Positions 9,579 to 40,413 of a stretch of 64,000 nt of DNA are shown piece by piece. The translations under genes were made by a program, and so were the position numbers. The notes under the pieces were generated by a model. That model searched no databases. It saw only the letters and a list, made by a program, of their open reading frames with translations, and was not told the DNA's origin. Where the stretch lies: positions 49,421,667-49,485,666 of the forward strand of contig OY282610.1 of NCBI GenBank assembly GCA_958298945.1, given 5' to 3'. Origin of the DNA: Atherix ibis (lineage: Eukaryota > Arthropoda > Insecta > Diptera > Athericidae). Positions within the stretch are counted from its first letter, which is position 1. The number at the start of each line of letters is the position of its first letter.

Positions 9579-11369
9579 TTATTTTTGATTATTCCGTCTA
9601 AACTTCTCACAAACGTTGCAGGATGCAACCATTTCCGTTATTTGACTGTTCATACCAGGCCAATAATACAACATTCTTGCGCGTGCAAGTGTTTTTTCTG
9701 TCCCTAAATGTGGTTCATGAAGCCACTTTGCAATTTTCCATTGTAATTTGGCTGGAATAATCAATCTGTGATTCAGAAACAGTAACCCATTTTCGAAATG
9801 CAATTCCGATTTGAATTTATGAAACTGTTTACTCAAATTATTTAAATGATGATATCCCGGCCAACCATTTTCAACATAACCACAGATGCGTTTATAATTC
9901 TCGTCTGAATCGAGCAATTGTTTGTAAAACTTGTAATTTTCTTCCGAAAGACAAACAGATTTTGTGACTGCGTGAATCACGCTCGATAATTGTGGTAACT
10001 CAGAAATCTCCGACAACTGTGCACGAGAAAGACAGTCGGCGACTAGCATATTTTTTCCGGGTTTGTACATGATTTCCATTTTTGGATATTTTAACAGCAA
10101 CATGATCATTCTTTGTAATCTTTGTGTTACGTCATCAATATACCGTTTTATTAGTGTTTCCAGCGGTTTGTGATAACTTTCCACAATAAATTCACGACCG
10201 TAAACATAGTAATGAAAACGTTCACACGCGAAAACAATAGCCAACAGTTCTTTTTCAATTTGTGCCCATTTTTGCTCCGTTTTACTAAGAGTTCTGGATG
10301 CAAAGGCAACGGGATGCCCATCTTGAATCAAAACCGATCCAAGTCCATCCTTTGATGCATCGGTTTGAATTGTAACCGGTTTTTCAGGGTCATATGCCAT
10401 TAAAATAGGTTCCGATGTGATAATGTTCAACAAATTGCTAAGTTCTATGTCATGTTTCTCATTCCACTCAAATGGAACATCCTTTCCCGTTAATCGTCGT
10501 AATTCAGCTGTTAGCTTTGACAGATTTGGAATAAATTTTGCCAAATATTTGAATACCCCATGCTTATCTGATGGTTTTTTAATTGCTAAGATGGCCTCTC
10601 TGTATTTATTGGCCGGTTGTAATGTGCCATTAGAAATAATGTGACCCATGAATTTGACTTCGGACTTACGATATTGAATTTTCTTTGAATTAAACTTGAC
10701 ATTGTGCAAACGTGCACGTTCAAGAACAATTGACAAAATTCTATCGTGTTCCTCTTCATCCGATGCTACAATGGCAATATCATCGAAGTAAACGATGACA
10801 CCCGGTATGTCACCAAAAACCTGTACCATTACTCTTTGAAATATTTCCGTTGCACAATTTAACCCAAATGGCAGTCGATTGAACTTATATCGGCCAAAGG
10901 GTGTCATGAATGTTGTCAATTCCGAACTTTTTTCATCTAATTCCAATTGCCAAAATCCATTTGAGCAATCAAGTACCGTGAAAACTTTTTTATTGCATAG
11001 TTCCGATGTGAAATTTTCCATCATACCAATTAAGAAATATTCCCGTTTAATACAAGCATTAAGTGGTTTTGGATCCAAGCAAATACGCAAATCATCCGGT
11101 TTTTCCACCACTTGTATGTTATGCACCCAATCAGTTGGATGCGACACTCGCGATATTACTTTCGCGATTTCCATTGCATCCAATTTAGGCTTAAGTTTCT
11201 TTATTATCATGTTTGGAAATCTCTTTTTGTAGTGAACAACCGGCTTTGCATCTTCTTTTAACTGAATAGTGACTTTTCCCGGTAATTTTCCAAGCCCATT
11301 AAATATGTCACTGTTGCTACTTACAAATTCTTCTTGACTTTCCGTTAATTGAATTGAATTAACGTTCAA
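9579..11369 (-). pseudogene. Gypsy reverse transcriptase, RNase H and integrase zinc-binding domain
   Basis: This is a 596-codon open stretch. The RT occupies roughly residues 30-270, with LRICLDPKPLNAC, FTVLDCSNGFWQLELDE (first catalytic Asp), and YFDDIAIVA as the Y-x-DD active site. RNase H follows at about 320-450, with TDASKDGLGSVL containing its first Asp. The HHCC zinc-binding domain of integrase lies near the end (HEPHLGTEKT ... CNVCEKF). The frame is cut at its start by a single-base shift near 11388 that separates it from protease, and at its end by a stop. The catalytic residues are therefore all visible, but the polyprotein is broken. In life it copies the element's RNA into DNA in cytoplasmic particles. 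Confidence 0.92.
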
Positions 11370-18787: not shown

Positions 18788-20267
18788 TTAAGAGTTTGGT
18801 ATGTCAATTGCATTCAGAATACTATTTTGGAGGATATTATTCCTTTTTAGATTAATTATAAATTTCTGATTTTCCAAATTATTATCACAAAAATTTTGGA
18901 TGGCTAAAATACTCCACTCTCGTACCACTAAAATAGAAAAATGAAAAAATGACAATTTATAATCAAATTAACAATCCTTACATGGATTTCTAATGAACAA
19001 AGAACAAGCTTACATGGATTTCTGGCATCGATGTTGGTACATTCTAGAATCACATTTATAAAGCCCATCTCTCTGGCAAGGTCTTGATTTATTTTATTCT
19101 TAAACAAGAGATTCGAAATTATTCGAACCAACATTTCACGCAACTTTGGCGCTGCCTGGCTAAGCATTTGTAGAGGCGTAAATAAACTATCGAAATATTG
19201 TCCAACTTCATTGATTTTCTTTAGTAAATAACCTGCATGCAAAAATAACGAAGAATCACTTTCGAATATGTCTGAATATCTTGCCTCTCCTGAAGAAACT
19301 GCTATCACTTCAATGATGACTATCACCTCTTTAACATTAATTTCATCCGGAGATGTGCTTACAATACTTAGAATGTTATCGGACCTTACTTTAAAACTGT
19401 TTGTTAAATGTTCCAATAACTGGAATTTTACTAGTCCGCCAATACTTCCATTGCGAATGTAATCGGCGACAAATTCCAGGAATACCATTTGTTGCTCAGC
19501 GGTAGACTGCTCGTATAAACCAACGAGATTTTCATATTTCGTTAGAAAATGTTCAATCAATATGTGGATAAATTCAATATAGTTGCCAGTTGCCGAAGCA
19601 TCGTGATTGCCCTTCGCCTGTTCCAATAACAGCAGAACCGATTTGAAAATTTCTTTGTCTTTACTTTGTACTGATTGTAAGGTGAACATGTTATATATGA
19701 TCATCAGTTTTATACAAGTATAAGCCGAAAACAAATCCAAATCACTTAAAAGTAAGTCTCCCATATCCGTCCAAATCATTTCCAGAGCTTGGCCATTTTG
19801 AACGCAAATGCTCTCTAGCAATTGCCAGCATCGTTTCTTCACTTTTTCCAAATCGGATTGATATTGTTCATCGATATTAGTCTTCGGTTTGAAAGTGATT
19901 ATTGTCCGCAGGGATTGTGAAAATTCCCTCCTAGAGGATATGTAATCCCGTACGTGACTACCATTTGGACAAAAGTTCCTCAACACTGTTAAGCATTCCA
20001 AACCAATTTTAATTATAAACTTATCTGTATCCGACTCATTTTTCAATTTGTAAGACAAATTGAAAATGTGATTGTATGCTTCGTCAATCACACTTTGTAA
20101 GGACTCCTCTGAACTAGTACTTCTACAAAATAATACACCGCATATATATGTTGTGTTTTTTGAAATAAATTGTTATTAATATTTAATATATTCTATTATA
20201 AATCAACTTACATTATATAAAACTGCTCAATGCGATCAAGGCATTTTAAGAAGTCTTTATCGTCCAT
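18788..20267 (-). CDS. ATXN10: Ataxin-10 homologue
   Basis: There are three exons on the minus strand. Exon 1 is 20267-20212 (MDDKDFLKCLDRIEQFYI, GTAAGT donor). Exon 2 is 20122-19014 (TTTTGTAG acceptor, GTAAGC donor). Exon 3 is 18927-18788 (CTATTTTAG acceptor, stop TAA at 18790-18788). The phases fit, giving about 434 residues, near the family's usual 450-480. The body is helical, armadillo-like repeat sequence (for example LECLTVLRNFCPNG). The diagnostic C-terminal ataxin-10 domain is split between exons 2 and 3: LECTNIDARNP, then REWSILAIQNFCDNNLENQ. Known family members are cytoplasmic scaffold proteins linked to cytokinesis, ciliary function and neuronal survival. Just inside intron 2 the donor region is repeated 32 bases further on; only the first site keeps the frame. 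A partial second copy is at 1-566. Confidence 0.88.
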
Positions 20268-21239
20268 GTCTATTTCGTAAGAGACCTCAACTGACAGCCA
20301 AAATCTTTGTATAATATAGTTTTGTAAACTGTATATTATATGTGTAGAAATTTTTGTGTGATATGATTCCTACTGATATCTAGTTCAGTCATGAAAGTTT
20401 TCTATACATTATAAAAAATAAAGAGAAATATAATTTAAAGATAACGACAGCACTTACCTTCTTCGGTTTTTTTTGCCACAACTTTGTGATTTGTCTATCG
20501 TTATACTCTATATTCTAAAGTACGGGGCTTAGATTATACGGTAGCAACACAATTCCGACTGAAACTGAAAACTGAACTACAAATACTGTCAAAGTAAACG
20601 AATTTCGTCCAAATTGACCAATTAAATACAATTTCAATAATAATTTTTTATTTATAAATTATGTTTGATTCCATATTTTCATAGTACTACAAGTAATGTA
20701 TTCACTAACCTTATTTCTATTTCAATTTAAACTGTCAACCAACAAGCCTGCCACATAACAAAACACTGAAATATATGGTAGCACTTGGACCACAACTGAT
20801 TAATTTAAAGAAGATTTAATTCGGCGATAAAACAGTCGGAGTTTTGTGACATCCCCTAAGATTGTGGTGGTTTAGAAATTTTGACAGTTCACCTGGATGC
20901 AGTTCTCAGTTTCAGTCAGAATTATGTTCCTTCCAATGCTGTATAACGATTAAACGTTACCTGGCCCGTACGTCAGATTTTCGTATATGTGGACGCAACA
21001 CATTTTCCCATATTACAAATATGGATTTATATCCATATATTATGTCCATTATAGGGTATAATTTTTGACAATGTAAAAATATAAAATCAGGGGAACCCCC
21101 ATCAGAAAGTAATCAGGCGATAGTCATTGAAACGTAACTCTGATTACTACTACTGTTGCAAACGAATTTTGTAGTTTTTAAGTTCTTATAGCCGATGAAC
21201 TCCAATAAACGTCAGTCGAATGATAGGCAACTATTTGCT
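20268..21239. promoter_or_regulatory. Upstream region of ataxin-10
   Basis: This is the 5' flank of the minus-strand gene. No clear core-promoter motif can be assigned. Apart from small differences it matches 567-1538, including a 14-bp inverted segment at 20303-20318. A second short intron and 5' UTR are possible, but nothing proves them. Confidence 0.35.
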
Positions 21240-22513
21240 TATTTATTTATATATAAGGTCTCTTAGACATATGCTAGGAGCCACTTCATAACGGCATAAC
21301 CATGAGGACATTTGGCGACTCCATAGTACGTGTGGGAAGCTATTCGAATGAGACTGGTCGGTGGTTAGTATGATAGGATAATGAGTATTTTGTTATAGTT
21401 TTTGAAGAAAGTTAGTACGTTGGAGAATTTCAAATAGGCAACTGGGGAATGGAGTTGTTGAATCCAGGAGCTCCATAATGGGAGGAATGCTCCTAGCGAA
21501 GTAATTCTTGGTATTAATTCATATAAAATATGGATGATGGTGAAATGAGTGCCACAGAATCGAAAATTATGGGTGCGAGCAGTATGTCCAGAATTTCCGT
21601 ATAGATGTTGAATAGACTGGTTTATTGGTGGCTATCCAATGAGCGGAGAAACATTTCTCGCAATTTGGGCAGTCATCGTGTATGCTGATTGCTAATGGTG
21701 TTAGTTACCATTCATTTAGTAGATGAGGCAGTTTGGAAATGACTACGATCACAAACATGAACACAAGGTGAGTTTGATGCACAGATTATCGTACCGTTTA
21801 TACGGCTCCAAGTGTTGATGTTGCAGATGGCGGTGTTAATTTGTTGTCGTAGCTCAGTGTCAGATATAAGCACAAAAATATTTTCAGCATATATGTAGTA
21901 GTTGAAGTGTGATAGGAGTTGGGAAAGAGAGTAAATATATATATTGAATAGGCTCGTAGATAGAGGGGATCCTGGTGCGATGCTGTTTTCCATTTCGATT
22001 TTGGACGAAAAATGACCATTGGCGCATATCGTGAAGGTTCTACCAGTTAGGTAGGAACGTGGAAGTGCCAATATTGCAGGATCTACTCTATGTCAGCGCT
22101 AATAGTATCCTGTACTAGCATATTTGATTATACGCCTTTTCTAAGTTAAACAGCACCATACTCAGAGTTCCCCTGCCCAATCCGTAGGCATATTATTGGG
22201 GTTAAGTCTGTTAGCAAGATCCGCAATAAGTCGTGTACCTAAAATCTTTTTCAAGCTCCAAGGCAATAATAAAATTCATCTAAAAGATAAGCCGAATAAT
22301 GGGAGGGATTTAATTTGGAAACTGGATTGGTAGTTGTAACCTTCCAATCATTTGGGAAAATAAATATTTCCCGAATTTTTGTTAAAGAGGTTGACAATTT
22401 TAATATGAAAATTCGGAGGGGCATATTAAAACCTTTTAAAAGAAACCTTGTCTCTGCCAAGTTGAAGGAATTTACCGAAAAGTTGAAGTGCTTAAGTGTT
22501 ACTGTCGGGGTCA
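21240..22513 (-). pseudogene. Decayed non-LTR reverse transcriptase, duplicate copy
   Basis: This is the counterpart of 1539-2875. It includes SYLTGRTFTICANG, GSPLSTSLFNIYIYSL and the degraded active site YAEN, and upstream FPNDWKV. Its reading frames are broken at similar places, showing that it was already dead before duplication. It is truncated on the right by the gypsy LTR. Confidence 0.7.
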
Positions 22514-26621: not shown

Positions 26622-27868
26622 CGAGGGTCGTTCAATAAGTCCTTAGAAAAAGATGGAAAAAACGGTTTTTTTTAAAAAAAATTTTTTATTTTTTAACATG
26701 TCTTCTCCAACCGTTTTTCCAAAATTTTTATCCCGTCAAAAAAATAGGATTTCGGAAGTTCTGCAAAATACTCATCCGTTTGAGCAAGGACGAACCGTCG
26801 TCCGCCAAGCCATTTCTTCAGATTGGGGAAAAGAAAATAGTCAGTCGAGGCCAAATCGATTAAGCGGGATGATGAAACAATTCCATTCTCAATTCCACAA
26901 TTTTTGGCCATGGAAACAGCGCAAGTGTGCACACGCGCATTGTCCTGATGCAAGAGGATTTTTTTCTTCTTCAGATGGGGGCGTTTCTCTTTGATTTCCT
27001 CGCTCAGCCGTTGCAATAACGACGCGTAATACACTCCTGCTATTGTTTTTGCTTTTTCCAAGTAGTCGATAAAAATGATGCCCTGCGAATCCCAAAAGAC
27101 CGTGGCCATCACCTTGCCAGCCGATGGCACAGTTTTTGCCTTCTTTGGAGCCCGTTCACCCTTGAAAATCCACTGTGATGACTGTCTCTTCATTTCTGGA
27201 GTGTAGTAGTGTATCCAGGTTTTGTCCACAGTGACATATCGACGAAGGAATTCGGCAGGATTGCGATGAAAGAGTGTCAACATAGCCTCAGAGTCCACTA
27301 CACGATTGCGCTTATTCTCCTCTGAGAGCAAACGCGGCACCCATCTTGCCGAAATTTTTTTCACAGACAATTTTTCATGCAAAATTGAAGCGACTGTACC
27401 TTGTGATATGGCCGTGGCCTCAACTAATTCGCGCACTTTAATTCACCGATCGGTCAAAATCAGATCGTGGATTTTGTCGCTGATTTCAGGAGTAGACACC
27501 TCAACTGGGCGTCCTGAACGATGTTCATCTTTTGTGGATGAACGGCCACGTTTAAATTCATTCACCCAATTGTAAACCGTCGCAAACACAGGTGCAGATG
27601 TACCATGAACTGCATCCAACTCGGCTTTGATTTCTTTCGGGCTTAAGCCTTTCAAATGGAGATGTTTGATGACAGCCCTAAACTCGCTTTTTTCCATTGT
27701 TATGCACAAAAAAATGTCGTTAACTTTAATCGACGATAGAAATTGACCTACGCTATGGATCGAGCTGAAATTTTGACAGCTTTCCTGTCGATAATGGTAC
27801 TTACAATCTTTACCGATACTACGAGCGCAATTTCTTGGATTTTCTAAGGACTTATTGAACGACCCTCG
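26622..27868 (-). mobile_element. Mariner element with CGAGGGTCG ends, full length but dead
   Basis: This 1,247-bp element is bounded by inverted ends CGAGGGTCGTTCAATAAGTC and its complement, and flanked on both sides by the target TA (26620-26621 and 27869-27870). It contains one transposase gene on the minus strand. Its four terminal bases, CGAG/CTCG, are exactly those found as small TA-flanked scars throughout the neighbouring mitochondrial insertion. Confidence 0.95.
26693..27709 (-). pseudogene. Mariner transposase with internal stop
   Basis: The frame from 27709 starts MCITMEKSEFRAVIKHLHLK and carries the paired helix-turn-helix DNA-binding region. A single in-frame TGA (27445-27443, where CGA would fit) interrupts it after LILTDR. 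It then continues through WVPRLLSEEN (the conserved WVPR linker) to the catalytic domain: the Asp of TVDKTW (the family has VDETW), the Asp of HQDNARVHT, and DLASTDYFLF where SPDLAPSDFFLF is usual. The segment between the second and third Asp is partly frame-shifted, and the C-terminus is shortened. In the family the protein cuts the element out and pastes it at TA; this copy should be inactive. Confidence 0.9.
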
Positions 27869-27929: not shown

Positions 27930-28420
27930 GTTTGATTTAATCCTCCTAATGAAAATAAAATAATTAATATTAGATATTTTTGTAAATTAAAGTATGAAAT
28001 TAATATTATTGGAGCAATTTTTTGTCATGTTTTTAAAATAAAATTATTATTTCAAGATAAACCTTCTATAATTGTAGGAAATCAGAAATGGAAAGGTGCA
28101 GCACCTAATTTTAATAATAATGTTGAAACAATTATTAAATTTAATAAATTATTAAAATAAAATTGGAAAATAAAATTAAAGTTAATTATTGAAATAATAA
28201 TTGAAAATAATAAAATTATTGAAGCTAGTGATTGAATTAAAAAATATTTTAAAGATGCTTCTGAGGGTATTACAATAAATTATTTTTATCATTTATTAGG
28301 GGAATAAATGATAATAAATTAATTTCTAGTCCTATTCAAGCAGTTAATCAAGAGTTTGATGAAATTGTAATTAATGTTCCAAATATTAATGTTGAAATAA
28401 ATAAAATCTTTGAAGTATTT
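27930..28420 (-). pseudogene. NUMT ND2 fragment
   Basis: In the mitochondrial code on the minus strand it reads LITISSNSWLTAWMGLEINL, then SEASLKYFL, LLKLGAAPFHFWFP and ILFSLGGLNQTN: the N-terminal two-thirds of NADH dehydrogenase subunit 2. A small indel near 28275 breaks the frame. Its 3' end is cut at the junction with the unknown fragment (about 27930), and its 5' end at the deletion joining ND1. Confidence 0.9.
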
Positions 28421-28820
28421 TTTATACTCGTACCTTTAATATTAGTTTGATTTGCTTCTTGTTTAGCTGAAACTAATCGAACTCCTTTTGATTTTGCTGA
28501 AGGAGAATCAGAATTGGTTTCAGGGTTTAATGTAGAATATAGAAGAGGAGGATTTGCTTTAATTTTTTTAACTGAATATGCAAGAATTTTATTTATAAGA
28601 ATATTCTTTGTTGTTTTATTTTTAGGTTGTGATATTTTTTCTATTTTTTTTTTTTTTAAGTTAGTATTTTTATCTTTTTGTTATTTGTTAGTTTGTGGTA
28701 CTTTACATCGATTCCGTTATGATAAATTAATGTATTTAGCTTGAAAGAGTTTTTTACCTTTTTCATTAAATTATATTATATTTAATATAATTTCTTTTAT
28801 ATTATTAATTAATTTTAGTA
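28421..28820 (+). pseudogene. NUMT ND1, C-terminal half
   Basis: Reads [20 protein letters not shown] and [16 protein letters not shown], a hallmark of NADH dehydrogenase subunit 1, through [16 protein letters not shown] to the C-terminus. The N-terminal half is lost at the deletion. A TA-CTCG-TA scar lies at 28425-28432, just before PLMLVW. Confidence 0.93.
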
Positions 28821-28821
28821 T

Positions 28822-28889
28822 AAAAATAATAGAAATATTAATTCTATCGTATGTTTTCAAAACATATGCTTATATCAAGCTCATTAACT
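28822..28889 (-). tRNA. NUMT tRNA-Ser(UCN), degenerate
   Basis: On the minus strand AGTTAATGAGCTTGATATAA is followed by a stem-loop with loop TTTGAAA, anticodon TGA, as in insect tRNA-Ser(UCN). The 3' half of the acceptor stem has decayed. It lies between cytb and ND1, as in the ancestral order, and would not work in the nucleus. Confidence 0.8.
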
Positions 28890-28891
28890 TA

Positions 28892-30034
28892 TTAGTTTAA
28901 TAAATTATCTCATCATTTTGTAATAATTGGATTAATTAAGTAATATAAAAAGTATAAGACTGTTAAAATTTGTCCTGTTAAAATATAAGGATCTTTTACA
29001 GGTCGAAAATATAAGGATCTTCTACAGGTCAAAATTACAATAATTACTATAAATCAAAATAATCTTTGGTTAATTGGATAGAATTGAATTCCTCGAAATT
29101 TACTTTAATGATAAAATGGTAAAATTATTAGAATTGCAATTGATATAATTAATGCAATTACTTCTCCTAATTTATTTGGAATTGATCGTAAAATTGCATA
29201 AGCAAATAAGAAATATCATTCTGGTTGAATATGAACTGGTGTTACTAAAGGATTTGCTGGAATAAAATTATCTGGATCTCCTAGTAAATATGAGTTAATT
29301 AGAGTTAATAATGTTAATAATATTAATAAAAATATAAATCCAACAATATCTTTGAATGTGAAATATGGATGAAATGGAATTTTATCAATATTTGAATTAA
29401 TTCCTAGTGGATTATTAGATCCTGTTTGGTGAAGAAATATTAAGTGAACAATAGTTATGGCTAAAATAATAAATGGAAAAATAAAATAGAAAGTGAAGAA
29501 TCGTGTTAAAGTTGCATTGTTAATAGCAAATCCTTTTCAGATTCATTGGACTAAATCTGTTCTTAAATATGGGACAGCTGAAAGTAAATTAGTAATTACT
29601 GTAGCTCCTCAAAATGATATTTGTCCTCATGGTAATACATATCCTATAAAAGCTGTTCCTATAACTAAAAATAAAATAATTACACCAACTAATCATGTAG
29701 GAGTATATAAATATGTTCTGTAATATATTCCTCGTCCTACATGTAAATAAATACAAATAAAAAAAAATGATGCTCCGTTAGCATGTAAGGTTCGTAATAA
29801 TCATCCGTAATTTACATCTCGGCAAATATTAGCAACACTATTAAATGCAGTATTGATATCTGCAGTATAATGTATAGCTAGGAATAATCCAGTTAAGATT
29901 TGAATAATTAAACATAATCCTAATAGTGAGCCGAAATTTCATCATGCTGAAATATTAGTTTGTGCTGGTAAATCAACAAGGGCATTATTTATAATTTTGA
30001 ATAGATGATGTTGTAGTCGGAATGGTTTATTCAT
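28892..30034 (-). pseudogene. NUMT cytochrome b, nearly complete
   Basis: In the mitochondrial code it reads from MNKPFRLQHHLFKIINNALV through [66 protein letters not shown] and [20 protein letters not shown] to WWDNLLN and TAA. All heme-ligand regions are recognisable. The only large change is near 29000, where a WIGA-type segment is replaced by a 26-base local duplication, shifting the frame. The start overlaps the end of ND6 as usual. Confidence 0.96.
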
Positions 30035-30294
30035 TAGTTTATTATTGGTCGTAAAAGGGCCATAAAAAATATTAGTAATTTTTACTGTTGCAATTAATGT
30101 TAATAGTAAATAATTAATTAAGATTAAAGTAATAATATTTGTTGGATAATTATATAATTTATTTAGATTTAAGGTATTTTCGTAATTTATTGAGGAAACA
30201 ATTGTTGAAATTATTTCATTATTAATAAATGATAATGAATAAGTTTTATCTATAATTAAAAATAATGGAATTATAATAACCTTAAATCTTAATA
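30035..30294 (-). pseudogene. NUMT ND6, C-terminal part
   Basis: Reads LYNYPTNIITLMLINYLLLT and LIATVKITNIFYGP, the conserved end of ND6. An extra T in GGCCCTTTT shifts the frame, so the standard-code frame runs through into cytb (30298-29942) without a stop. The gene is split at 30294/31580 by a mariner relic; the other part is 31580-31850. Confidence 0.9.
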
Positions 30295-31579
30295 ACAAGT
30301 ACTTGGCTCACCGCCCGATGGAACTGCTGTCATAAAAGAAACTGCTGTCACAAAAGAAATTTACCATCGTGCCTACTGTCAAAGTTTCAGTCGATTCCCT
30401 TCATTAGTTTTGTTTTGAGAGCCTTTGAAAGCGAGCGTGTCGGTCGGTTGCACAAAAATGGAAAAAGAACAATATCGTTCGGAGATTTTTTGGAAGGGAA
30501 AACGCGCAGCGAAATCAAAGATCGCTTGGATCTTAGATTAAAGAATACCTGGATAGGCCCCTACCGTATATGTATACGCAATTTTGTGTAAGAATTTTTA
30601 CGTGGGGGATATGACTGTCAAAAATTTTTTATGTAGACATGACACCCACTACCATCTATGTGTCATAATGGAAATTTACTTAATTGCAAAAGCATAATTT
30701 ATATTTATTTTAATTCACTTATTGGAAACAAAAATACAATTTAAATACAACGATAGGTCATTTTTATTTTTTGTACAATCTTTTGATACGAAATGGAATT
30801 CTATTTTAGGTTTATTATACATTTCGTAAATATCAATCAAATATAAACCGCCTCAATTTTGTAGACTTTCGGAGAGTTTGAAAACTTTAATTCTCCATGA
30901 AAGTGGAGACTTGGGGGTTAGCTTTGTCATTTGTGAATCCGATGTTGACAGTTCAATGTTTACCATAAAATAGTACAGTGCTGGTGTATATAAAGTGTGT
31001 GTAAGAAACTTTAAGGGACAGAATTTTTCTGTCTATTTTCTATTGCTGTTTTCAAAACACGCAATATTAAAAAAATCTGCTTCTTTACGCATAAATGATA
31101 TCACATATGAAAAATGGTTTTAAACGAACCGCTTCAATCGCATACTGAACTTTTAATGATTAACGCCGTTTCTGTTGTATTGCATGTGTGTACGTTCTAT
31201 GAATGTATTGCCACAAAATTTGGTCAGAATTTTTGTGTAGAGGCCTATCCAGTTCTTCTTTAATCTAAGGCTTGGATACTGTGTATGGTGACTCTTCTCC
31301 TTCGATGGCAACCGTCAAGAATTAGTTCAACGAGTTTGTTCCTGGCCGCACGTCGGTTTTTGATGAGCCACGCCCAGGTGCCCCGAAAACGGCTGCTACG
31401 GAGGAAAACGTTAAAAAAGTCCACGATCTCGTGTTGGCAGACCGTCGATTGAAGGTTCACGAGATAGTTGAGACTGTGGGCATCGCAGTAGGAAGAAGAT
31501 TATGTGGAAAAATAAATTGCCACCTTTCCAAAATTTTCGTTTTTCTTTTGTAGGCTAAGTACTTGTTGAATGACCCACG
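30295..31579 (+). mobile_element. Mariner relic in ND6, with another element inside
   Basis: The right end CTTGTTGAATGACCCACG lies before the target TA (31580-31581). The left end keeps ACAAGTACTTGG but lacks the outer 13 bases. Inside are the N-terminal transposase parts on the plus strand: MEKEQYRS at about 30459, then, after a 738-bp nested element, RTSVFDEPRPGAPKTAATEE and VKKVHDLVLADRRLKVHEIV near 31340-31470, the paired HTH region. The catalytic domain is deleted. Its termini (CGTGGG) differ from the other two mariner families in the window. Confidence 0.85.
30532..31269. mobile_element. 738-bp TIR element with 8-bp target duplication
   Basis: Ends are about 33-base inverted repeats starting CTTAGATTAAAGAA and continuing CTGGATAGGCC. 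The 8-bp repeat GCTTGGAT flanks it exactly (30524-30531 and 31270-31277), inside the mariner transposase gene. No coding frame is visible. An 8-bp duplication fits hAT or P superfamilies, so this is probably a non-autonomous member. A larger, decayed relative is at 14560-15728. Confidence 0.88.
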
Positions 31580-31850
31580 TATTATTAAAATTGTATTTAT
31601 TAATGTTAATTTTATTGATATTGAAAATATTTCATTTGAAGCTAGTGAAGTTACATACCTCCTAAAATACAAGGAATAAAATATATGAGAATCAAAAAGT
31701 TTTGGCAAATATTCCTCTAATTAAGCAAATTAATAGTGTTTGAATTAATAGTATTAATCCTATTGCTAGTGGGTGATTTATTTGTAAAAAGGTAAATCTT
31801 GAAATAATTGTTATTAAGTAAATAATTAATTGGTAAATATCAGAAAATAA
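31580..31850 (-). pseudogene. NUMT ND6, N-terminal part
   Basis: In the mitochondrial code it reads HPLAMGLMLLIQTLLICLIS, FAKTFWFSYILFLVFLGGM, then SLASNEMFSMSMKLTLMNT. A short deletion after GGM (the usual LVLFIY segment) breaks the frame. It joins across the mariner relic to 30294. Confidence 0.88.
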
Positions 31851-31921
31851 TTTAAATAAAATATTAATTTTGGGGATTAATGATAGGATATATATGTATA
31901 TATTACAATACCTTTTTTCTG
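31851..31921 (+). tRNA. NUMT tRNA-Pro
   Basis: Acceptor arms CAGAAAA and TTTTCTG pair; the anticodon loop TTTTGGG holds TGG. It lies between ND6 and tRNA-Thr as in the ancestral order. Nuclear copy, not functional. Confidence 0.85.
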
Positions 31922-31923
31922 AA

Positions 31924-31993
31924 GTTTTAAAAGAAAAGTTGTTATTTTTGATTTACGAGTACAAGACCAATGTTTTTATTAAACTGTTAAAAC
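31924..31993 (-). tRNA. NUMT tRNA-Thr with an insertion in the anticodon arm
   Basis: Minus strand: acceptor arms GTTTTAA and TTAAAAC pair, and the anticodon TGT follows GGTCT. Six bases are inserted right after the anticodon (31955-31960, giving TA-CGAG-TA on the plus strand), which destroys the anticodon stem. Confidence 0.85.
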
Positions 31994-31995
31994 TA

Positions 31996-32252
31996 ATGAT
32001 AGTTTTATTTAATGGATTAATTATTTTATTTATATTTATAATAGGGGAATTTATAGTATTAAGATTATTTTTTTTTATATTGTATTTGTTTTTTTTTTAA
32101 ATAAAATAAATTATGAAAATTTTTTTAGAATAATATTTTTAACTTTTTGTGTTTGTGAAGGTGCATTAGGCTTATCAATTTTAGTTTCTATAATTCGAAC
32201 TCATGGTAAAGATTATTTTCAATCATTTAATACTCGTATTTTACAATGTTAA
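31996..32252 (+). pseudogene. NUMT ND4L
   Basis: Starts MMVLFNGLIMLFMF, is frame-shifted in a poly-T run near 32090, then reads [18 protein letters not shown] and DYFQSFN...LQC to TAA. A TA-CTCG-TA scar splits the final FNILQC. The stop overlaps the ND4 start in the usual ATGTTAA. Confidence 0.92.
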
Positions 32253-33077
32253 AATTTTTATTTGCAATTCTTTTTTTATTTTTTTGTTGTTTTAATAAAA
32301 AAATATTTTGAATGGTACAAAATATAATTTTATTATTAAGTTTTTTATTTATTTTAAATAATTTTTTTTAGAAATTTTTATATATATTTATGTTAAGTTA
32401 TTTTTTAGGATGTGATTTAATTTCATATGGAATAATTTTATTAAGATTTTGAATTTGTAGTTTAATAGTACTCGTAATAGCAAGTGAATCTATTTTTAAA
32501 TATAGAAATTATTCTATTTTTTTTTTAGTTAATGTATTATTTTTATTAATATTTTTATATTTAACTTTTAGAAGAATGAGTTTATTTATATTTTACGAGT
32601 ATTTATTTTTTGAAAGTAGTTTAATTCTTACACTATTTTTTATTTTAGGTTGAGGGTATCAACCTGAACGATTACAAGCAGGGGTATATTTATTATTTTA
32701 TACTTTATGTTATTAGCTTCTTTACCAATATTAGTGGGTATTTTTTATTTATATCAAAATAGAATAACTATAAATTTTTATTTATTAAGAAAAAGTAATT
32801 ATTTATTTAATTTATTATATTTTAGTATAATTTTAGCTTTTTTAGTTAAAATACCAATATTTTTGGTTCATTTATGATTACGTAAAGGTCATGTAGAAGC
32901 TCCGGTTTCTGGATTGATAATTTTAGCTGGTGTTTTATTAAAATTAGGGGGTTATGGATTATTACGGGTTTTTTCTTTTTTAACAAGTTTAGGAATAAAA
33001 ATGAATTTTGTTTGAATTAGAATTTGATTAGTTGGTGGATTTTTAGTTAGTTTAATATGTTTACGTCAAACAGATTT
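32246..33077 (+). pseudogene. NUMT ND4, first part
   Basis: Begins [15 protein letters not shown]; recognisable are [49 protein letters not shown] and [14 protein letters not shown], then FLVSLMCLRQTD. Three small insertions at TA (32469-32476, 32594-32601, 32706-32712) break or lengthen the frame. It is interrupted at 33077 by a 3.5-kb TIR element; it resumes at 36610 and again at 38093. Confidence 0.95.
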
Positions 33078-33191
33078 CCCAAGCAGCACCAAATAACTTC
33101 TAAGTTAGATTACTAATTTACGACGTTGTAGCGACGTCAGATTTTGCGAAAATATTACTTTTTTGTCAATTTTTGAAAATGATTGAAAAAA

Positions 33192-34468
33192 ACAGTTCGG
33201 CTGAAAAGTTGAGAACCATGACGTCTAGATGGCACCTCTTGCAAAAATCTTTTTAATTATCACAAAGCACCATGCTTCAAATGATTCCTGTCAAAATTTG
33301 ACAGCAATCGGTCGATTGGTTCGTGAGATATAGCATTTTGAGTGGAGCAACTTTTGTTATTGAAAAATGGATGAAGACGAATTTCGTGTATTGATAAAAC
33401 ATTGCTTTTTGATGAAAAAAAATACAGTGGAAACCAAAGCATGGTTCGACAAACGTTATCCGGACTCTGCTCCAGCTATTTCAACTGTGAAATATTGGTT
33501 TCGTCAATTTCGAACTGGTCGTACGAGCACAGTTGATGCAGAACGCAGTGGACGCCCAAAAGAAATGGTTACGGCAGAAAACATCAAAAAAATCCACAAA
33601 ATAATTTTAAATGACCGTAAAGTGAAGTTGAGCGAGATAGCTGAGACTCTGAAGATATCGAAAGAGCGTGTTGGACATATCTTGCATGAATATTTGGGCA
33701 TGCGAAAGCTGTGTGCAAAATGGGTGCCGCGTGAGCTCACTGTGGACCAAAAACAACAACGTGTTGATGATTCTGAGCAGTGTTTGGAGCTGTTCAAGCG
33801 TAATAAACCCGAATTTTTGCGTCGATATGTGACAATGGATGAAACATGGCTCCGTCACTACACTCCAGAGTCCAATCGGCAGTCGGCAGACTGGAGAGCG
33901 AGGGACGAACCGAATCCAAAGCGTGGAAAGACGCAACAGTCGGCTGGCAAGGTGATGGCGTCTGTATTTTGGGATGCGCATGGTATAATATTCATTGACT
34001 ATCTCCAGAAGGGACAGACGATCAACAGCGACTATTATATAGCGTTATTTGATCGTTTGAAAAAAGAAATCGCTAAGAAACGGCCTTATTTGAAGAAGAA
34101 AAAAGTGTTGTTTCACCAAGACAATGCACCATGTCACAAGTCGATGAAAACGATGGTCAAACTCAATGAATTGGGCTACGAATTGCTTCCCCATCCACCG
34201 TATTCTCCAGATCTGGCCCCCAGCGACTTTTTCCTATTTGCAGACCTCAAGAGAATGCTCGCTGGCAAGAAATTTAAGACCGATGATGAAACTGAGGCCT
34301 ATTTTGAGGTAAAACCGAAAGAGTACTATAAAAATGGTTCCAAAAAGTTGGAAGATCGCTATAATCGCTGTATCGCCCTCGAAGGCAACTATGTTGAATA
34401 ATGAAAATGAATTTTGCAAAAAAAAATATTTCTACTGTGTTTTGTTCTAAACTTTTCAGCCGAACTGT
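33192..34468 (+). mobile_element. Mariner, irritans (Himar-like) group, apparently intact gene
   Basis: This 1,277-bp element has inverted ends ACAGTTCGGCTGAAAAGTT and its complement, TA on the right (34469-34470) and AA on the left where TA is expected. It contains a complete transposase gene on the plus strand. A second, dead copy is at 36836-38092. Confidence 0.95.
33367..34401 (+). CDS. Mariner transposase (irritans group), full length
   Basis: 344 residues with no interruption. Two helix-turn-helix motifs occupy residues ~1-110 (including KISKERVGHILHEYLGMRKL), followed by the WVPREL linker. The catalytic domain has Asp in TMDETWLRHYTPES, Asp in FHQDNAPCHKS, and Asp in YSPDLAPSDFFLF. 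I count 34 residues between the second and third, the D,D34D signature of mariner. It ends EGNYVE like Himar1. It is four residues shorter than the usual 348: after KFKTDDE the copy at 36836-38092 has VIAE, which is missing here as a 12-base deletion between GAA repeats. The gene could make protein; whether that protein is active is unknown. It acts in the nucleus, cutting at the ends and inserting at TA. Confidence 0.93.
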   Translation: MDEDEFRVLIKHCFLMKKNTVETKAWFDKRYPDSAPAISTVKYWFRQFRTGRTSTVDAERSGRPKEMVTAENIKKIHKIILNDRKVKLSEIAETLKISKERVGHILHEYLGMRKLCAKWVPRELTVDQKQQRVDDSEQCLELFKRNKPEFLRRYVTMDETWLRHYTPESNRQSADWRARDEPNPKRGKTQQSAGKVMASVFWDAHGIIFIDYLQKGQTINSDYYIALFDRLKKEIAKKRPYLKKKKVLFHQDNAPCHKSMKTMVKLNELGYELLPHPPYSPDLAPSDFFLFADLKRMLAGKKFKTDDETEAYFEVKPKEYYKNGSKKLEDRYNRCIALEGNYVE

Positions 34469-34942
34469 TAGATAACTTTTTTATCGGTAGGACTACACAC
34501 CGACAATAAAGTTACGAAGTAATTCTCGCGTTATTTTTCAACTACCACTTTACTTTTTGTTCTTGTATAAAACTAACACCCGACTAAAAATACATCGCCG
34601 CCGTCTAAATGACCAGATAATGACGTTAAAGTTATACCGTCGAATTTTGGTTATTTTTTAACTTTGTTGCAACTCTGTTCTTGGTTTATGACTATGAAAC
34701 AACTTTTTAGTCGGATTCTAAAAAATTAGTTATTTGTTCAACCGCTGCACGACTAATTTGTTTTAAACTGTCATAGTTTGTTGTCGAATCAAAGAACACA
34801 TTAATTATTATTAAAAATTGAATTAAATTAAAAAAATGGATTTGTTAAATTCACCTAATAAAAAAACCCTCAAAATAACATAAAACGATTCAAACATACG
34901 ACATCATATTATCGTAAAGTTAAGTTTTATTTAAATCAACCA

Positions 34943-35227
34943 TTGAGGCAGAAAAATTCTTCAGGTAAAACCAAAACATTTACAATGCAGCTCCTGGATA
35001 ATTTTAATATTTTTTATTTTTCTCCAGATCCGAATGCCTCAATTAATTTAAAGCCTTCTGTGAGAATATTAGCAATCAAATCTTCTTCCAATAACAAGCC
35101 ACCTCCGCCTTTTTCAAATAATTTAAATTCATCTACGAATATCTTACCAAGTCAATTACATTTATCATCATCAAATAATATTAACCATCACGAAAACCTA
35201 GTGATGGCGAAATACTTGACGGAGTAA
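34943..35227 (+). other. Open frame of unknown meaning in the TIR element
   Basis: 94 codons, low complexity (Asn, Ser, Pro), overlapping the end of the minus-strand DUF4806-like frame. No domain is recognised; probably chance. Confidence 0.2.
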
Positions 35228-35591
35228 CATAATCATTTTCGAACATGTCATTTAAATCATCAAGCTGTGATAAATCATTATTGAGTTTCTTAATATTTTT
35301 CCTCTTTGAATCAGTAAAAACAATTGGTTGTTCTGATTCAGAACTGGAATAGTCCAGCATTTGTTTTTCCATTCTAACACCGTTAACATATGTATCGATT
35401 TCAGTCATTTTGACTACACAAGGAAATTTATCCCAATTTAATTCTGGCACGCTTTCTGCAGTTTTTAGTTTTAGTAAAGCATTAGCCTTACATTTAGGCC
35501 AATGAAGAATTCCATTATCCATCCAGATTTGTGGCACTGTGGAAAGATAATATTTTCCTTTTTCGATCGTCTGTACAATTGAAAAAGGCAT
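35181..35591 (-). CDS. DUF4806-type N-terminal region, transposon-borne
   Basis: 136 residues starting MPFSIVQTIEKGKYYLSTVP, with WMDNGILHWPK, NWDKFPCVV and an acidic, Ser-rich second half. Short N-terminal modules of this shape (hydrophobic start, VVPxxW, WP, a later W) are typical of insect proteins that end in a DUF4806 domain. No DUF4806 C-terminus is seen downstream in this element, but one is present in the element at 6584-8391, which has related ends. The start codon is unambiguous; further exons are possible. Function unknown. Confidence 0.4.
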   Translation of the reverse strand: MPFSIVQTIEKGKYYLSTVPQIWMDNGILHWPKCKANALLKLKTAESVPELNWDKFPCVVKMTEIDTYVNGVRMEKQMLDYSSSESEQPIVFTDSKRKNIKKLNNDLSQLDDLNDMFENDYVTPSSISPSLGFRDG

Positions 35592-36609
35592 CTTTACAGA
35601 TCACTTTTTACAAGCACAAACTAAAGACACAAACTATCGATACGAACTGAACAACTGCGACGATGTTGACAAAAGCGAACTGTCAAAAATACGGTTGCGA
35701 TTTTAACTTTTATGTGCGTTACAAAACTTTATGGTCATATACATTTATTTTTTGTAATTTAATTGTCAAAATAGTTGGGACGCTGACTTTTCCGTTATTA
35801 CGACAACTAGAAAGTCTATCACGTTACTTTTTTGTAATCTGATAGTTAATTCAATAACTTTTTCGTTTCAATATAGAATTCGCCATTTTAAATGCATATA
35901 ATTCAATAACTAAAAAAATAAAGTAGAACCAAATATATGAAAAAAGTCGTTTTAATAGGCAAAATTACGATTAAAACTACATTTTTTGCCCAAAAAAGCT
36001 ATCAAAAATATTTTAGAAATAGTTTTAAACAAAAAATTAAGCTAAAATGAAAATCATCTACAAATTTTTTATAAATTTTTCATTTATTTCGAGCATTATT
36101 TGAGAGGGGAATGAATTATTTGTAAATTTTTAGGTATATGTTATTTCACAGCAAAAATGTTCTTCGTTTGTTAATTTGGGTTTTACAGTGCTATATATGC
36201 CAGAAAATATATTTCGATATTCTCATATTTAAAAGAAATATTAATAAAGAAAGATATATAAATTAGAGAGAGACTTTATATACAGATGTTGTTGATTAAA
36301 AGAAGACAACAATACATGACTGCAACTTATTTTAGTAGCTTAATTTAACAATATTGTAATAAATATTACAGCAAACCGACTAAAAAGTTAAAAAAAACAC
36401 GCTCAAATAACTTTTTTCACTTGTCACTTCTTAGTCATTTCAATGGTCGAGAGGAAGTTATTATGACGTCGGACCGACCCAAAAATCATTCCCCAAATCG
36501 GTCGGCTCGACGTTGGTGCGATGTTGTACCAACGTTGCACAGCCGACCACCTGAAGTCATGTGACCGACTACGGCTCGACGTCATTACAACCAGGCGGTG
36601 CTACTTGGG

Positions 36610-36835
36610 TTAAAGGCATTAATTGCTTATTCTTCAGTAGCTCATATAGGAATTGTTTTAAGTGGATTAATAACTTTAAGATATTGAGGATTTAGTGGTT
36701 CTTATATATTAATGATTGCTCATGGATTATGTTCGTCTGGATTATTTAGATTAGCAAATGTTTCTTATGAACGATTGGGAAGTCGTAGATTAATAATTAA
36801 TAAGGGTTTATTAAATCTTATACTTTCTATAACTA
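36610..36835 (+). pseudogene. NUMT ND4, middle part
   Basis: In the mitochondrial code [32 protein letters not shown] and [20 protein letters not shown], ending in LMPSM-like sequence where the mariner enters at TA 36834-36835. Confidence 0.93.
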
Positions 36836-38092
36836 ACAGTTCGGCTGAAAAGTTTATAAGGTAACACAGCAAAAATATTTTTTTTGCAAAATTCATTTTT
36901 ATTATTCAACATAGTTTCCTTTGAGGGCGATACAGCGATTATAGCGATCTTCCAACTTTTCGATACCATTTTTATAGTACTCTTTCGGTTTTGCCTCAAA
37001 ATAGGCCTCAGTTTCGGCAATTACTTCATCATCGGTCTAAAATTTCTTGCCAGCGAGCATTCTCTTGAGGTCTGCAAACAGGAAAAAGTCGCTGGGGGCC
37101 AGATCTGGAGAATACGGTGGAGGGGGAAGCAATTCGTAGCCCAATTCATTGAGTTTGACCATCGTTTTCATCGACTTGTGACACGGTGCATTGGCTTGGT
37201 GAAACAACACATTTTTCTTTTTCAAATGAGGCCGTTTCTTAGCCATTTCTTTCTTCAAACGATCCAATAACGCTATATAATAGTCGCTGTTGATCGTCTG
37301 TCCCTTCTGGAGATAGTCAATGAATATTATACCATGCGCATCAAAAAATACAGACACCATCACCTTGCTAGCCGACTGTTGCGTCTTTCCACGCTTTGGA
37401 TTCGGTTCGTCGCTCGCTCTCCACTCTGCCGACTGTCGATTGGACTCTGGAGTGTCGTGACGGAGCCATGTTTCATCCATTGTTACATATCGACGCAAAA
37501 ATTCGGGTTAATTGCGCTTTAACAGCTCCAAACACTGCTCAGAATCATCAACACGTTGTTGTTTTCGGTCCACAGTGAACTCACGCGGCACCCATTTTGC
37601 ACACAGCTTTCGCATGCCCAAATATTCATGCACGATATGTCCAACACGCTCTTTCGATATCTTCAGAGTCTCAGCTATCTCGCTCAACTTCACTTTACTG
37701 TCATTTAAAATTATTTTGTGGATTTTTTTGATCCACTGCGTTCTGCATCAACTGTGCTCGTACGACCAGTTCGAAATTGACGAAACCAATATTTCACAGT
37801 TGAAATAGCTGGAGCAGAGTCCGGATAACGTTTGTCAAACCATGCTTTGGTTTCCACTGTACTTTTTTTCATCAAAAAGCAATGCTTTATCAATACACGA
37901 AATTCGTCTTTATCCATTTTTTTTTCAACAACAAAAGTTGCTCCAATCAAAATGCTATATCTAACGAACCAATCGAGCGATTGCTGTCAAATTTTGACAG
38001 GAATCATTTGAAGCATGGTGCTTTGTGATAATTAGATTTTTGCAAGAGGCGCCATCTAGACGTCAATCTTATAAACTTTTCAGCCGAACTGT
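36836..38092 (-). mobile_element. Second irritans-type mariner, dead, in ND4
   Basis: This 1,257-bp element has ends ACAGTTCGGCTGAAAAGTTT and complement, flanked by TA (36834-36835 and 38093-38094). It is inserted directly in mitochondrial sequence, so it postdates the NUMT. It is closely related to 33192-34468 but in the opposite orientation. Confidence 0.95.
36890..37950 (-). pseudogene. Mariner transposase, inactivated
   Basis: Compared with 33367-34401: about 37 bases are deleted after AERSG (near 37728), a TAA replaces a Lys codon before PEFLRR (37508-37510), and a TAG follows GKKF (about 37039). The second catalytic Asp is changed to Ala (FHQANAPCHKS). The first (MDETWLRH) and third (LAPSDFFLF) Asp remain. 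It keeps the VIAE residues missing from the intact copy. Confidence 0.93.
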
Positions 38093-38338
38093 TATATGAT
38101 GATTTTTATTTAAAGCTGCTAATATAGCTGCTCCTCCTATATTACGTGCAAATTTATTAAGAGAAATTAGTTTAATTAATTGCTTTGTTAGTTGATCATG
38201 ATTAACTATAACATAATAGTTATATCATTAATTTCTTTTTTTAGTGTTGCTTATACATTATATTTATATGCTTATAGTCAACATGGAAAATATTTTTCTG
38301 GTATATTTTCTAATTTAAGTAATAATATTCGTGAATAA
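38093..38338 (+). pseudogene. NUMT ND4, last part
   Basis: Continues MWWFLF...AANMAAPPMLRANLL and [20 protein letters not shown] to NNIRE and TAA at 38336-38338. A TA-ACA-TA scar at 38210-38216 breaks the frame before LISFF. A 79-base spacer of unclear origin follows before tRNA-His; the two are normally adjacent. Confidence 0.9.
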
Positions 38339-38417
38339 TTATAAATATGTTTACATTGATTACCTTTAAATTTATTGATTATGAAAAGTGAATATTTTTT
38401 ATTGTGATTATAATAAT

Positions 38418-38481
38418 ATTTAAGTAGTTTAAATAAAATATTGATTTGTGGTGTTAATAATATGAAATTTTCATCTTAGAT
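38418..38481 (+). tRNA. NUMT tRNA-His
   Basis: Acceptor arms ATTTAAG and CTTAGAT pair; the anticodon GTG lies in GATTTGTGGTG. Position between ND4 and ND5 fits. Confidence 0.85.
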
Positions 38482-40194
38482 CATTAAGTATATTTCTATT
38501 TGTTTAAATAGATTTTTATTTTTATTTTCTATTAGTATTAGATTATTTATTTTAAGAATAAAATTTTTATTGAATAATTTGGTAATTTTTATTGAATGAG
38601 AAGTTGTTTCTTTAAATAGTCCAAGAATTGTAATAACATTTTTATTTGTTTGAATAAGATTAATATTTATGTCATTTGTTTTATTAATTTCTTCTTTAGT
38701 AATTTTTTACAGCAAGGAATATATGAGAGGAGATATTAATATTATTCGTTTTATTATATTAGTTTTAATATTTGTGTTATCTATAATATTATTAATTATT
38801 AGTCCTAATTTAATTAGTATTTTATTAGGTTGAGATGGTTTAGGGTTGGTTTCTTATTTATAGTAATTTTTTTTCAAAATGTAAAATCTTATAGTGCTGG
38901 GATATAAACGGCTTTATCTAATCGGATTGGTGATGTTGCTATTTTATTATCTATTGCTTGAATATTAAATTATGGAGGATGAAATTATATTTATTATTTA
39001 GAAGAAATGAAAAATGATTTTGAAATAATAGTTATTGGTATATTAGTAATATTAGCGGCAATAACTAAAAGTGCTCAAATTCCATTTTTTTCTTGATTAC
39101 CAGCGGCTATAGCAGCACCTACTCGTACACCTGTTTCTGCATTAGTTCATTCTTCAACTTTAGTGACTGCTGGTGTATATAAATTATGTTAATTCGATTT
39201 AATATTTTATTAGTAGAAACTTGAATAGGACAGTTATTATTATTATTATCTGGATTAACAATATTTATGGCAGGTATAGGGGCAAATTTTGAATTTGATT
39301 TAAAAAAGATTATTGTTTTATCTACGTTAAATCAATTAGGACGAATAATAATAATTTTATCAATAGGATTTTTTAAATTAGCATATTTTCATTTATTGAC
39401 TCATGCTTTATTTAAGGCTTTATTATTTATGTGTGCAGGTGCTATTATTCATAATATAAGAAATTCTCAGGATATTCGTTTAATAGGGGAATTCGTAAAT
39501 CATATACCTTTTACTTCTTCTTGTTTAAATGTTGCTAATTTAGCTTTATGTGGTATGCCTTTTTTAGCTGGATTTTACTCAAAGGATATAATTAAGAAAT
39601 TGTATCTTTATCTTATTAAAATATATTTAGTTTTTTCTTTTATTTTTTTTCTACAGGATTAACTGTTTTTTATTCAATTCGGTTAGTTTATTATACAATG
39701 ACTGGAAATTTTAATGTAATATCTTTACATTTATTAAATGATGAGGGTTGAATTATATTAAAGGGAATAATGGGATTATTATTTATAGCAATTATTGGTG
39801 GAAGTATATTAAATTGATTAATTTTTGCAGTTCCTTATATAATTTGCTTACCTAATTATTTAAAGTTAATAACTCTATTTATTTGTATTATAGGGGGTAA
39901 TATAGGTTATTTATTTTCGAATGTTTCTTTATATTTTTTAAATAAATCATTAAAGTATAATTTTTTATATTTCTACTTATTGAATTATTTATTATCCTTT
40001 ATTTTTAAGAAGTCAAATATTAAAAAATGTTGATCAAGGATGATCAGAATTTATAGGAGGTCAAACAATTTATAATTCTTAAAAAAGTTATTCTATTATT
40101 AATCAATTAATTCAAAATAATAATTTAAAAATTTATTTAATAGTGTTTGTTATATGAATTTTTACATTATTATTATTATTTTTATTTATTTAAA
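38482..40194 (+). pseudogene. NUMT ND5, full span, frame-shifted
   Basis: In the mitochondrial code: FIEWEVVSLNSP, GWDGLGLVSYL, KSAQIPFFSWLPAAMAAPT, PVSALVHSSTLVTAGVY, GQLLLLLSGLTMFMAGMGAN, FFKLAYFHLLTHALFKALLF, GMPFLAGFYSKD and a long C-terminal tail. Breaks include stops near 38862, a TA-CTCG-TA scar (39120-39127), a TA-TGT-TA scar (39185-39191) and an indel near 39655. The 131-codon standard-code frame at 39267-39662 is just a surviving open piece. Confidence 0.95.
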
Positions 40195-40200
40195 AATAAA

Positions 40201-40267
40201 ATTCAAATAGCTTATAATTTAGAGCGTGACATTGAAGATGTTAAAGAGATTAAATTAATCTTTGAAT
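40201..40267 (+). tRNA. NUMT tRNA-Phe
   Basis: Starts ATTCAAATAGCTTA; acceptor arms ATTCAAA and TTTGAAT pair; the anticodon GAA lies in ACATTGAAGATGT. Next to ND5 as expected. Confidence 0.88.
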
Positions 40268-40285
40268 AAATAATTAATTTTAGTA

Positions 40286-40350
40286 ATTTATAAAAGAATT
40301 CCTTTATTTTTACAGTAAAAATGGAAGGTTTTAGTTTAAACTATATAAAT
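40286..40350 (-). tRNA. NUMT tRNA-Glu with altered anticodon
   Basis: Minus strand: starts ATTTATATAGTTTAAAC; acceptor arms pair with 40286-40292. At the anticodon position it reads TTT where insect tRNA-Glu has TTC, a C-to-T change consistent with decay in the nucleus. Confidence 0.75.
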
Positions 40351-40413
40351 TAAATTATATAAAATAATATATAAAATACGAGTATATAAAATAATTTAGT
40401 GAATAATTAAGTA

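Follow-up and report, generated by a model that had tools for sequence, protein, structure and literature searches.

A nuclear copy of mitochondrial DNA (NUMT) in the fly Atherix ibis carries the same octamer at seven places, and the question raised by this locus is what left it there. The window, by which we mean the whole analyzed stretch of 64,000 nucleotides, corresponds to C6:49421667-49485666 of the species' own assembly (670 Mb in 144 contigs, to which all genome-wide counts refer) and holds approximately 6.6 kb of mitochondria-like sequence in four pieces. The octamer is TACGAGTA, i.e. TA-CGAG-TA, or TA-CTCG-TA on the reverse strand. An initial annotation had interpreted the seven octamers as excision scars of one mariner family with a four-base remnant. 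Tc1/mariner-type excision with such a remnant proved well supported; the single family did not, as at least three families (A, C, and D) with TA-CGAG ends were found. Very probably, CGAG-ended mariners left the scars when they excised themselves by cut and paste with a stagger of four nucleotides (nt), and two other mariner types left 3-nt scars in the same NUMT.

Results

Insertions in the NUMT

The species' true mitochondrial DNA (mtDNA) is present in the assembly as contig C144 (15,766 bp). A search with window positions 31700-33080 as the query returned 143 candidates, and the best 40 matches, which were scored, comprise this contig and many NUMTs. Four long frames, ND1, CytB, ND4, and ND5, are open in the part of C144 that was read (L029), and its ND5 is closest to that of Suragina sp. 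(Athericidae) with 89% identity, the other 119 of the best 120 of 7,999 matches reaching at most 84%. The examined part of C144 comprised 9,568 bp (7,467 + 600 + 1,501 bp). Over 5,604 aligned positions, the NUMT differs from it by 243 substitutions (4.3%), 16 insertions, and 7 deletions. The insertions measure 6 bp (six), 5 bp (four), 1 bp (three), and 8, 9, and 16 bp (one each).

All seven octamers in the window lie inside the NUMT, exactly where the initial annotation had placed them. When the whole window was shuffled 100 times, a mean of 0.42 and a maximum of 2 octamers were obtained, and Markov models predict 0.037-0.058 for the NUMT with the octamers removed and 0.046-0.34 with the octamers kept. 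Among the NUMT 8-mers present at least four times, TACGAGTA ranks first. With the alignment to the true mtDNA made and its insertions listed, the concern that the octamers might already be part of the mtDNA can be set aside, as the motif is absent from the 9,568 bp examined. Relative to C144, the octamer represents a clean 6-bp insertion at a TA in five cases: 31954, 32231, 32469 (placed by the aligner at the equivalent position 32468), 32594, and 39120. Of the six 6-bp insertions in the alignment, five read CGAG or CTCG, and the sixth, CGTG, differs by one base.

According to the initial annotation, removing six bases restores the conserved residues in each protein gene, and comparisons with known genes agree with six surplus bases at these five insertions, in ND4, ND5, ND4L, and tRNA-Thr. 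ARAGORN recovers tRNA-Thr (tgt) only after the six bases at 31954 are removed, and in the best-matching PDB complex I chains (8b9z, from Drosophila, and its kin) precisely two residues are missing at each of the two ND4 sites and at the ND5 site. At 32231, mammalian ND4L chains lack the two residues, and fly chains stop before the site. The site at 40377 is not uniquely placeable. The placement of 28425 simply inside ND1 has to be revised: on its left, the sequence corresponds to the start side of ND2 up to a TA ending at C144 position 6219, on its right to ND1 from a TA at position 10051 onward, approximately 3.8 kb away in C144, and the scar coincides exactly with this ND2/ND1 junction. The ND1 chain alignment starts right at this site.

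Six further scars, which the initial annotation had missed in listing the seven CGAG sites, form the strongest evidence for the excision reading and serve as an internal control (Table 1). Four 5-bp insertions relative to C144 read TA-ACA-TA or, on the other strand, TGT, three of them directly (aligner positions 32388, 32705, and 38208) and one after the gap at 39180 was moved; one CAA and one CGTG scar complete the set. Scars of three and of four nucleotides are thus recorded side by side in one NUMT. The 16-bp insertion beside tRNA-Pro/Thr (31892-31910) contains TACAATA, possibly another CAA scar.

Table 1. Scars and mariner copies located in the window, with window positions and strand.
Feature	Position	Strand	Basis or remark
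TA-CTCG-TA scar	28425..28432	-	Junction of ND2-side piece (left) and ND1 piece (right)
TA-CGAG-TA scar in tRNA-Thr	31954..31961	+	6-bp insertion vs C144; ARAGORN
TA-CTCG-TA scar near ND4L 3' end	32231..32238	-	C144 alignment; mammalian ND4L lacks two residues
TA-CTCG-TA scar in ND4	32469..32476	-	C144 alignment; two extra residues vs best ND4 chain
TA-CGAG-TA scar in ND4	32594..32601	+	C144 alignment; two extra residues vs best ND4 chain
TA-CTCG-TA scar in ND5	39120..39127	-	C144 alignment; APT[RT]PVSALVHSS vs best ND5 chain
TA-CGAG-TA, probable scar, AT-rich spacer by tRNA-Ser1	40377..40384	+	AT repeat, not uniquely alignable
TA-ACA-TA 3-nt scar in ND4	32389..32395	-	5-bp insertion vs C144
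TA-ACA-TA 3-nt scar in ND4	32706..32712	-	5-bp insertion vs C144
TA-ACA-TA 3-nt scar in ND4	38209..38215	+	5-bp insertion vs C144
TA-ACA-TA 3-nt scar in ND5	39185..39191	-	Aligner gap at 39180; re-placing leaves two substitutions
TA-CAA-TA 3-nt scar in ND2	28271..28277	+	5-bp insertion; ND2 piece aligned separately
TACGTGCA = TA-CGTG-CA, read as TA-CGTG-TA with one T to C change	38143..38150	+	6-bp insertion at 38144
Copy of mariner family A, TA beside both CGAG ends	26622..27868	-	Perfect inverted ends of 31 bp with TA counted in; a TGA interrupts the transposase frame
Rearranged mariner family D remnant in ND6	30294..31579	.	Right end CGTG, left end lost
Mariner family B copy, ACAGTTCGG ends	33192..34468	+	Open transposase frame 33367-34398; nested in other insertion in ND4
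Second mariner family B copy, in ND4	36836..38092	-	TA on both sides

Mariner families and their ends

The genome sample comprised 200 kb in sampled stretches (L-numbered, e.g. L009) and 41 kb of the window. It contains at least three mariner or mariner-like families with TA-CGAG ends, namely A (CGAGGGTCGTTCAATAAGTCC), C (CGAGGTCTGTTCAAAAAGTAT), and D (CGAGGGTCATTCAACAAGTAC). The four scar bases CGAG are the first four of these families, and ACA is the first three of family B, of which two copies (ACAG ends, ACAGTTCGGCTGAAAAGT) sit within the ND4 of the NUMT. A 1.2-kb element in L023, which reads as mariner-like, has ends (TTGGGTGTATAACTTAAA) that agree with the CAA scar. Because the scar letters match the ends of these elements within one neutral sequence, it appears that three bases remained after elements of the ACA and TTG types and four after those of the CGAG type.

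With 1,251 bp including both TA, the family A copy has the size of approximately 1.3 kb and the short inverted ends of a mariner. It has a TA on both sides, as has the second B copy, so that the target TA is duplicated; the first B copy has it on one side only. Pfam, run on A and B only, returned Transposase_1 (PF01359) for A (E 9.7e-25, downstream of the stop) and for B (E 3.2e-22), and the PDB matches for the mariner transposases are Mos1 and SETMAR chains. Counted by eye in the translation of family B, the second D is separated from the third by 34 residues; this region is degenerate in the A copy. Throughout the genome, family A ends occur 11,699 times (at most two mismatches; control 0), and many of the 100 places listed are paired approximately 1.25 kb apart. 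TACGAG stands at 11 of the 15 ends from the family A search, a set that includes D-type ends, and at 9 of the 16 from the family C search. The first B copy is carried by a 3.5-kb insertion in ND4 (33078-36609), the sequence of which is of no assigned type.

Putative scars elsewhere in the genome

Genome-wide, TACGAGTA was counted 64,228 times, compared to approximately 14,700 expected from an order-3 model (built on 189.8 kb of the sample, from which L011 was excluded on account of its tandem repeat) and 16,030 for a reversed-pattern control. From the observed and predicted numbers, an excess of approximately 50,000 octamers follows. The initial annotation had regarded a genome-wide occurrence of the motif without relation to the mariner family as fatal to its reading; this came about only by half, as the motif is indeed in approximately fourfold excess, but CGAG-ended mariners are abundant as well. 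Among 136 TA-NNNN-TA classes in the 189.8 kb, CACG (4.97) and CGAG (4.31) have the two highest ratios of observed to expected counts; ranked by z, CACG comes first and CGAG third, with ATAA in between. Four further 10-kb stretches contained seven TACGAGTA in total, one stretch being without any.

The CGTG octamer TACGTGTA was found 28,981 times genome-wide (approximately 11,400 expected; reversed control 21,835). Its fivefold excess in the sample is an overstatement, since the genome count is approximately 2.5-fold the model or less and 1.3 times the reversed control. As a scar class, TAGACCTA was rejected: it topped the raw sample, yet belongs to a tandem repeat (26 of 27 in L011).

Paralogous sequences were scanned for insertions of 3-10 bp in L009-L038 and the 41 kb of the window, and the rows fitting TA-x-TA were ACA (7), CGAG (6), CACG, equal to CGTG (4), and 8 others. 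The ACA rows represent two window sites seen twice, one in L037, and one common to L034 and L035. Behind the CGAG rows stand six distinct sites, one of which (L018) lies outside the NUMT, whereas two CACG rows go back to the same ancestral site. Four paralog pairs were compared. A clean six-base gap was seen only for L009/L027, where the repeat at L009 position 3648 has TACTCG and its L027 copy lacks exactly these six bases; L018 is ambiguous, and L020 and L025 align too poorly. At L010:4564-4577, TACTCGTACGTGTA presents two scar types with a common TA, as if a scar had been reused as a target.

Surroundings of the NUMT

Directly beside the NUMT, positions 41100-64000 (approximate) suggest a long satellite array, with repeat units up to 42500 and an even composition to 64000. 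Shared words at a near-constant offset of approximately 19.7 kb between positions ~1-2300 and 19700-22000 suggest a duplication within the window. ND4 pieces (query ~622-1346, approximately 90% identical) lie within approximately 105 kb of the ends of contigs C1, C2, C3, C5, C6, and C7, mostly several per contig end, and C4 has no match among the best 40. These pieces look as if a NUMT had joined a subtelomeric repeat. An Rfam search of the window gave no match.

Discussion

Proposed course of excision

Cut-and-paste mariners would have entered and left this NUMT repeatedly. Elements with CGAG ends, presumably members of families A, C, or D, would insert at a TA and duplicate it. On exit, the cut in the 5'-ended strand would lie four bases within the element and that in the other strand right at the element's end, so that both flanks would carry a 3' overhang TA-CGAG. 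Rejoining of the flanks would then keep the overhang of one side and yield either TA-CGAG-TA or TA-CTCG-TA. A 4-nt stagger accounts equally well for both orientations. Two other mariner types would have left ordinary three-base scars (ACA and CAA). At 28425, the same joining may have taken place across two TA sites approximately 3.8 kb apart, with the outer ends of two insertions leaving together and the intervening DNA being lost; alternatively, two copies might have recombined before an excision.

Two CGAG 3' overhangs could pair as C-G, G.A, A.G, and G-C, and CGTG overhangs could do likewise with two G.T pairs. Adjacent G.A pairs are stable in a CGAG-type context. The three-base form TACGATA shows no excess in the sample (26 compared to 26.5 expected). 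Mixed heteroduplex products, counted on both strands of the sample, are not in excess in the case of CTAG (TACTAGTA, 4 compared to 4.9) and too few to judge in the case of CGCG (TACGCGTA, 4 compared to 1.8), and the NUMT contains neither CTAG nor CGCG scars. Independent mismatch repair should make such scars common; going by these counts, a joint seems as a rule to keep one overhang in full. Self-pairing is unnecessary for clean scars in general, because an ACA overhang cannot self-pair. It is conceivable, though doubtful, that in one group of mariners the first cut shifted inward, to four bases from the end instead of three, and that self-pairing of the CGAG overhang lets gaps close directly and uniformly, leaving tens of thousands of identical, countable scars as a ledger of departures in which the length and letters of a scar would tell the family.

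Weighing of the explanations

Several results weigh against excision of CGAG-ended mariners as the source. In the passages of PMC2170065 and PMC3878927 cited here, Tc1/mariner excision leaves 2-3 nt, and the CGAG scars have four. None of the seven sites was seen with an element still in place, so that the departing element has not been caught. Further TA-x-TA classes exceed expectation (ATAA with a z of 6.9, CGTA with 16 compared to 5.2, and CGAC with 10 compared to 3.5), and the CGTG scar is without an assigned source, as a single D end carries CGTG and TACGTGTA reaches just 1.3 times its reversed control. A 6-bp insertion in L035, GTATAC, fits none of the three scar types. Finally, in 14.2 kb from 12 further pieces of NUMT, taken from the best 40 matches, there is no CGAG scar, with approximately 1.7 expected.

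Since these 12 pieces lack the scar, its density in the present NUMT is a local peak. Here, 7 CGAG scars were observed, whereas the excess rate of the whole genome, adjusted to TA content, predicts approximately 0.8 (P ~3e-5); local hopping and permissive chromatin beside the satellite are candidate causes. Other scar types do occur in the 12 pieces, namely TGT in L034/L035 (one common site) and L037 and CAA in L041, as do insertions fitting no scar (homopolymers and 3-, 4-, 7-, and 11-bp insertions). One of these pieces, the older NUMT L042 (C1:67611380-67612040), has a single 5-bp TA-TGG-TA insertion, the form expected from a CCA-ended mariner.

Could another element have made the scars? The end of the Tc1-like element Minos begins with ACGAGCCCCAACC, and thus with ACGAG, and the letters of its footprint hold the same four bases CGAG; a Minos-type element with such ends and a 6-bp scar would leave the identical 4-nt remnant, and the footprint length is documented (PMC10992017). 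However, the 20-base form of this end has 11 matches (at most three mismatches) in 670 Mb, with 3 in the control, compared to the 11,699 family A ends counted at the stricter threshold of two. Its first 12 bases give four weak matches in the window, below chance, and no Minos-like family appears among the TACGAG-initial sites of the genome sample. A Minos-type source is therefore very unlikely, and close relatives of Minos are nearly refuted, their end being practically absent (11 matches, control 3).

We also consider it unlikely that a now extinct or very rare CGAG-ended element made most of the scars and that the abundant CGAG mariners are bystanders. The CGTG scars, for which the sample holds no abundant element with CGTG ends, do indicate that scars can outnumber their visible source, but families A, C, and D are common and carry exact TA-CGAG ends in the proportions given above. 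With approximately 14,700 octamers expected by chance genome-wide, single octamers elsewhere prove nothing. For the NUMT itself, chance, sequencing error, or mtDNA polymorphism is hardly credible: 7 octamers stand against 0.04-0.06 expected, none occurs in 9.6 kb of mtDNA, and five of the six 6-bp insertions are identical in their four bases, with the sixth one base off.

Significance

Departures of transposons are normally invisible, and their histories are read from resident copies. Here, they become countable and assignable by scar type, because the mtDNA provides the ancestral sequence at each alignable site. Set beside 11,699 resident ends of family A alone, the approximately 50,000 excess octamers suggest that departures may be as numerous as the copies still resident, or more so. 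With 3-nt and 4-nt scars in one locus, sequence comparison by itself can also test where mariner transposases cut.

Comparison with known systems

For Tc1/mariner elements, published descriptions place one cut two to three bases within the element and that of the opposite strand precisely at the terminus (PMC2170065, PMC3878927). Cleavage by Mos1 gives a 3-base overhang (PMC4505599), and the footprint of Hsmar1 is T(T/A)A (PMC3878927). Mos1, Hsmar1, and other DD34D mariners resemble the present elements in the TA target, the short inverted ends, and the Mos1-like transposase, and the ACA and CAA scars, with 3 nt, follow them; the 4-nt CGAG scars, however, differ from those described for Mos1 and Hsmar1. 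Hsmar2 leaves non-canonical footprints that are variable (PMC3770610), unlike the uniform scars found here. The cited passages of PMC2874221, PMC4350095, and PMC3355041 hold nothing against the excision reading. Among the literature matches listed, a scope outside which most subscription papers fall, neither a genome-wide scar census nor a 4-nt mariner scar was present. Mariners of the irritans subfamily in aphids have ends that begin with CGAGG and so share the start of the ends, and the cited part of their description mentions no excision scars (PMC5490172). Minos of Drosophila hydei has a 6-bp footprint, equal in length to the 6-bp insertions of the NUMT, and inverted ends of 255 bp (PMC10992017), compared to 31 bp including the TA in family A. 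Measured against these published accounts, as far as cited, a remnant of four bases falls outside the pattern described for mariners.

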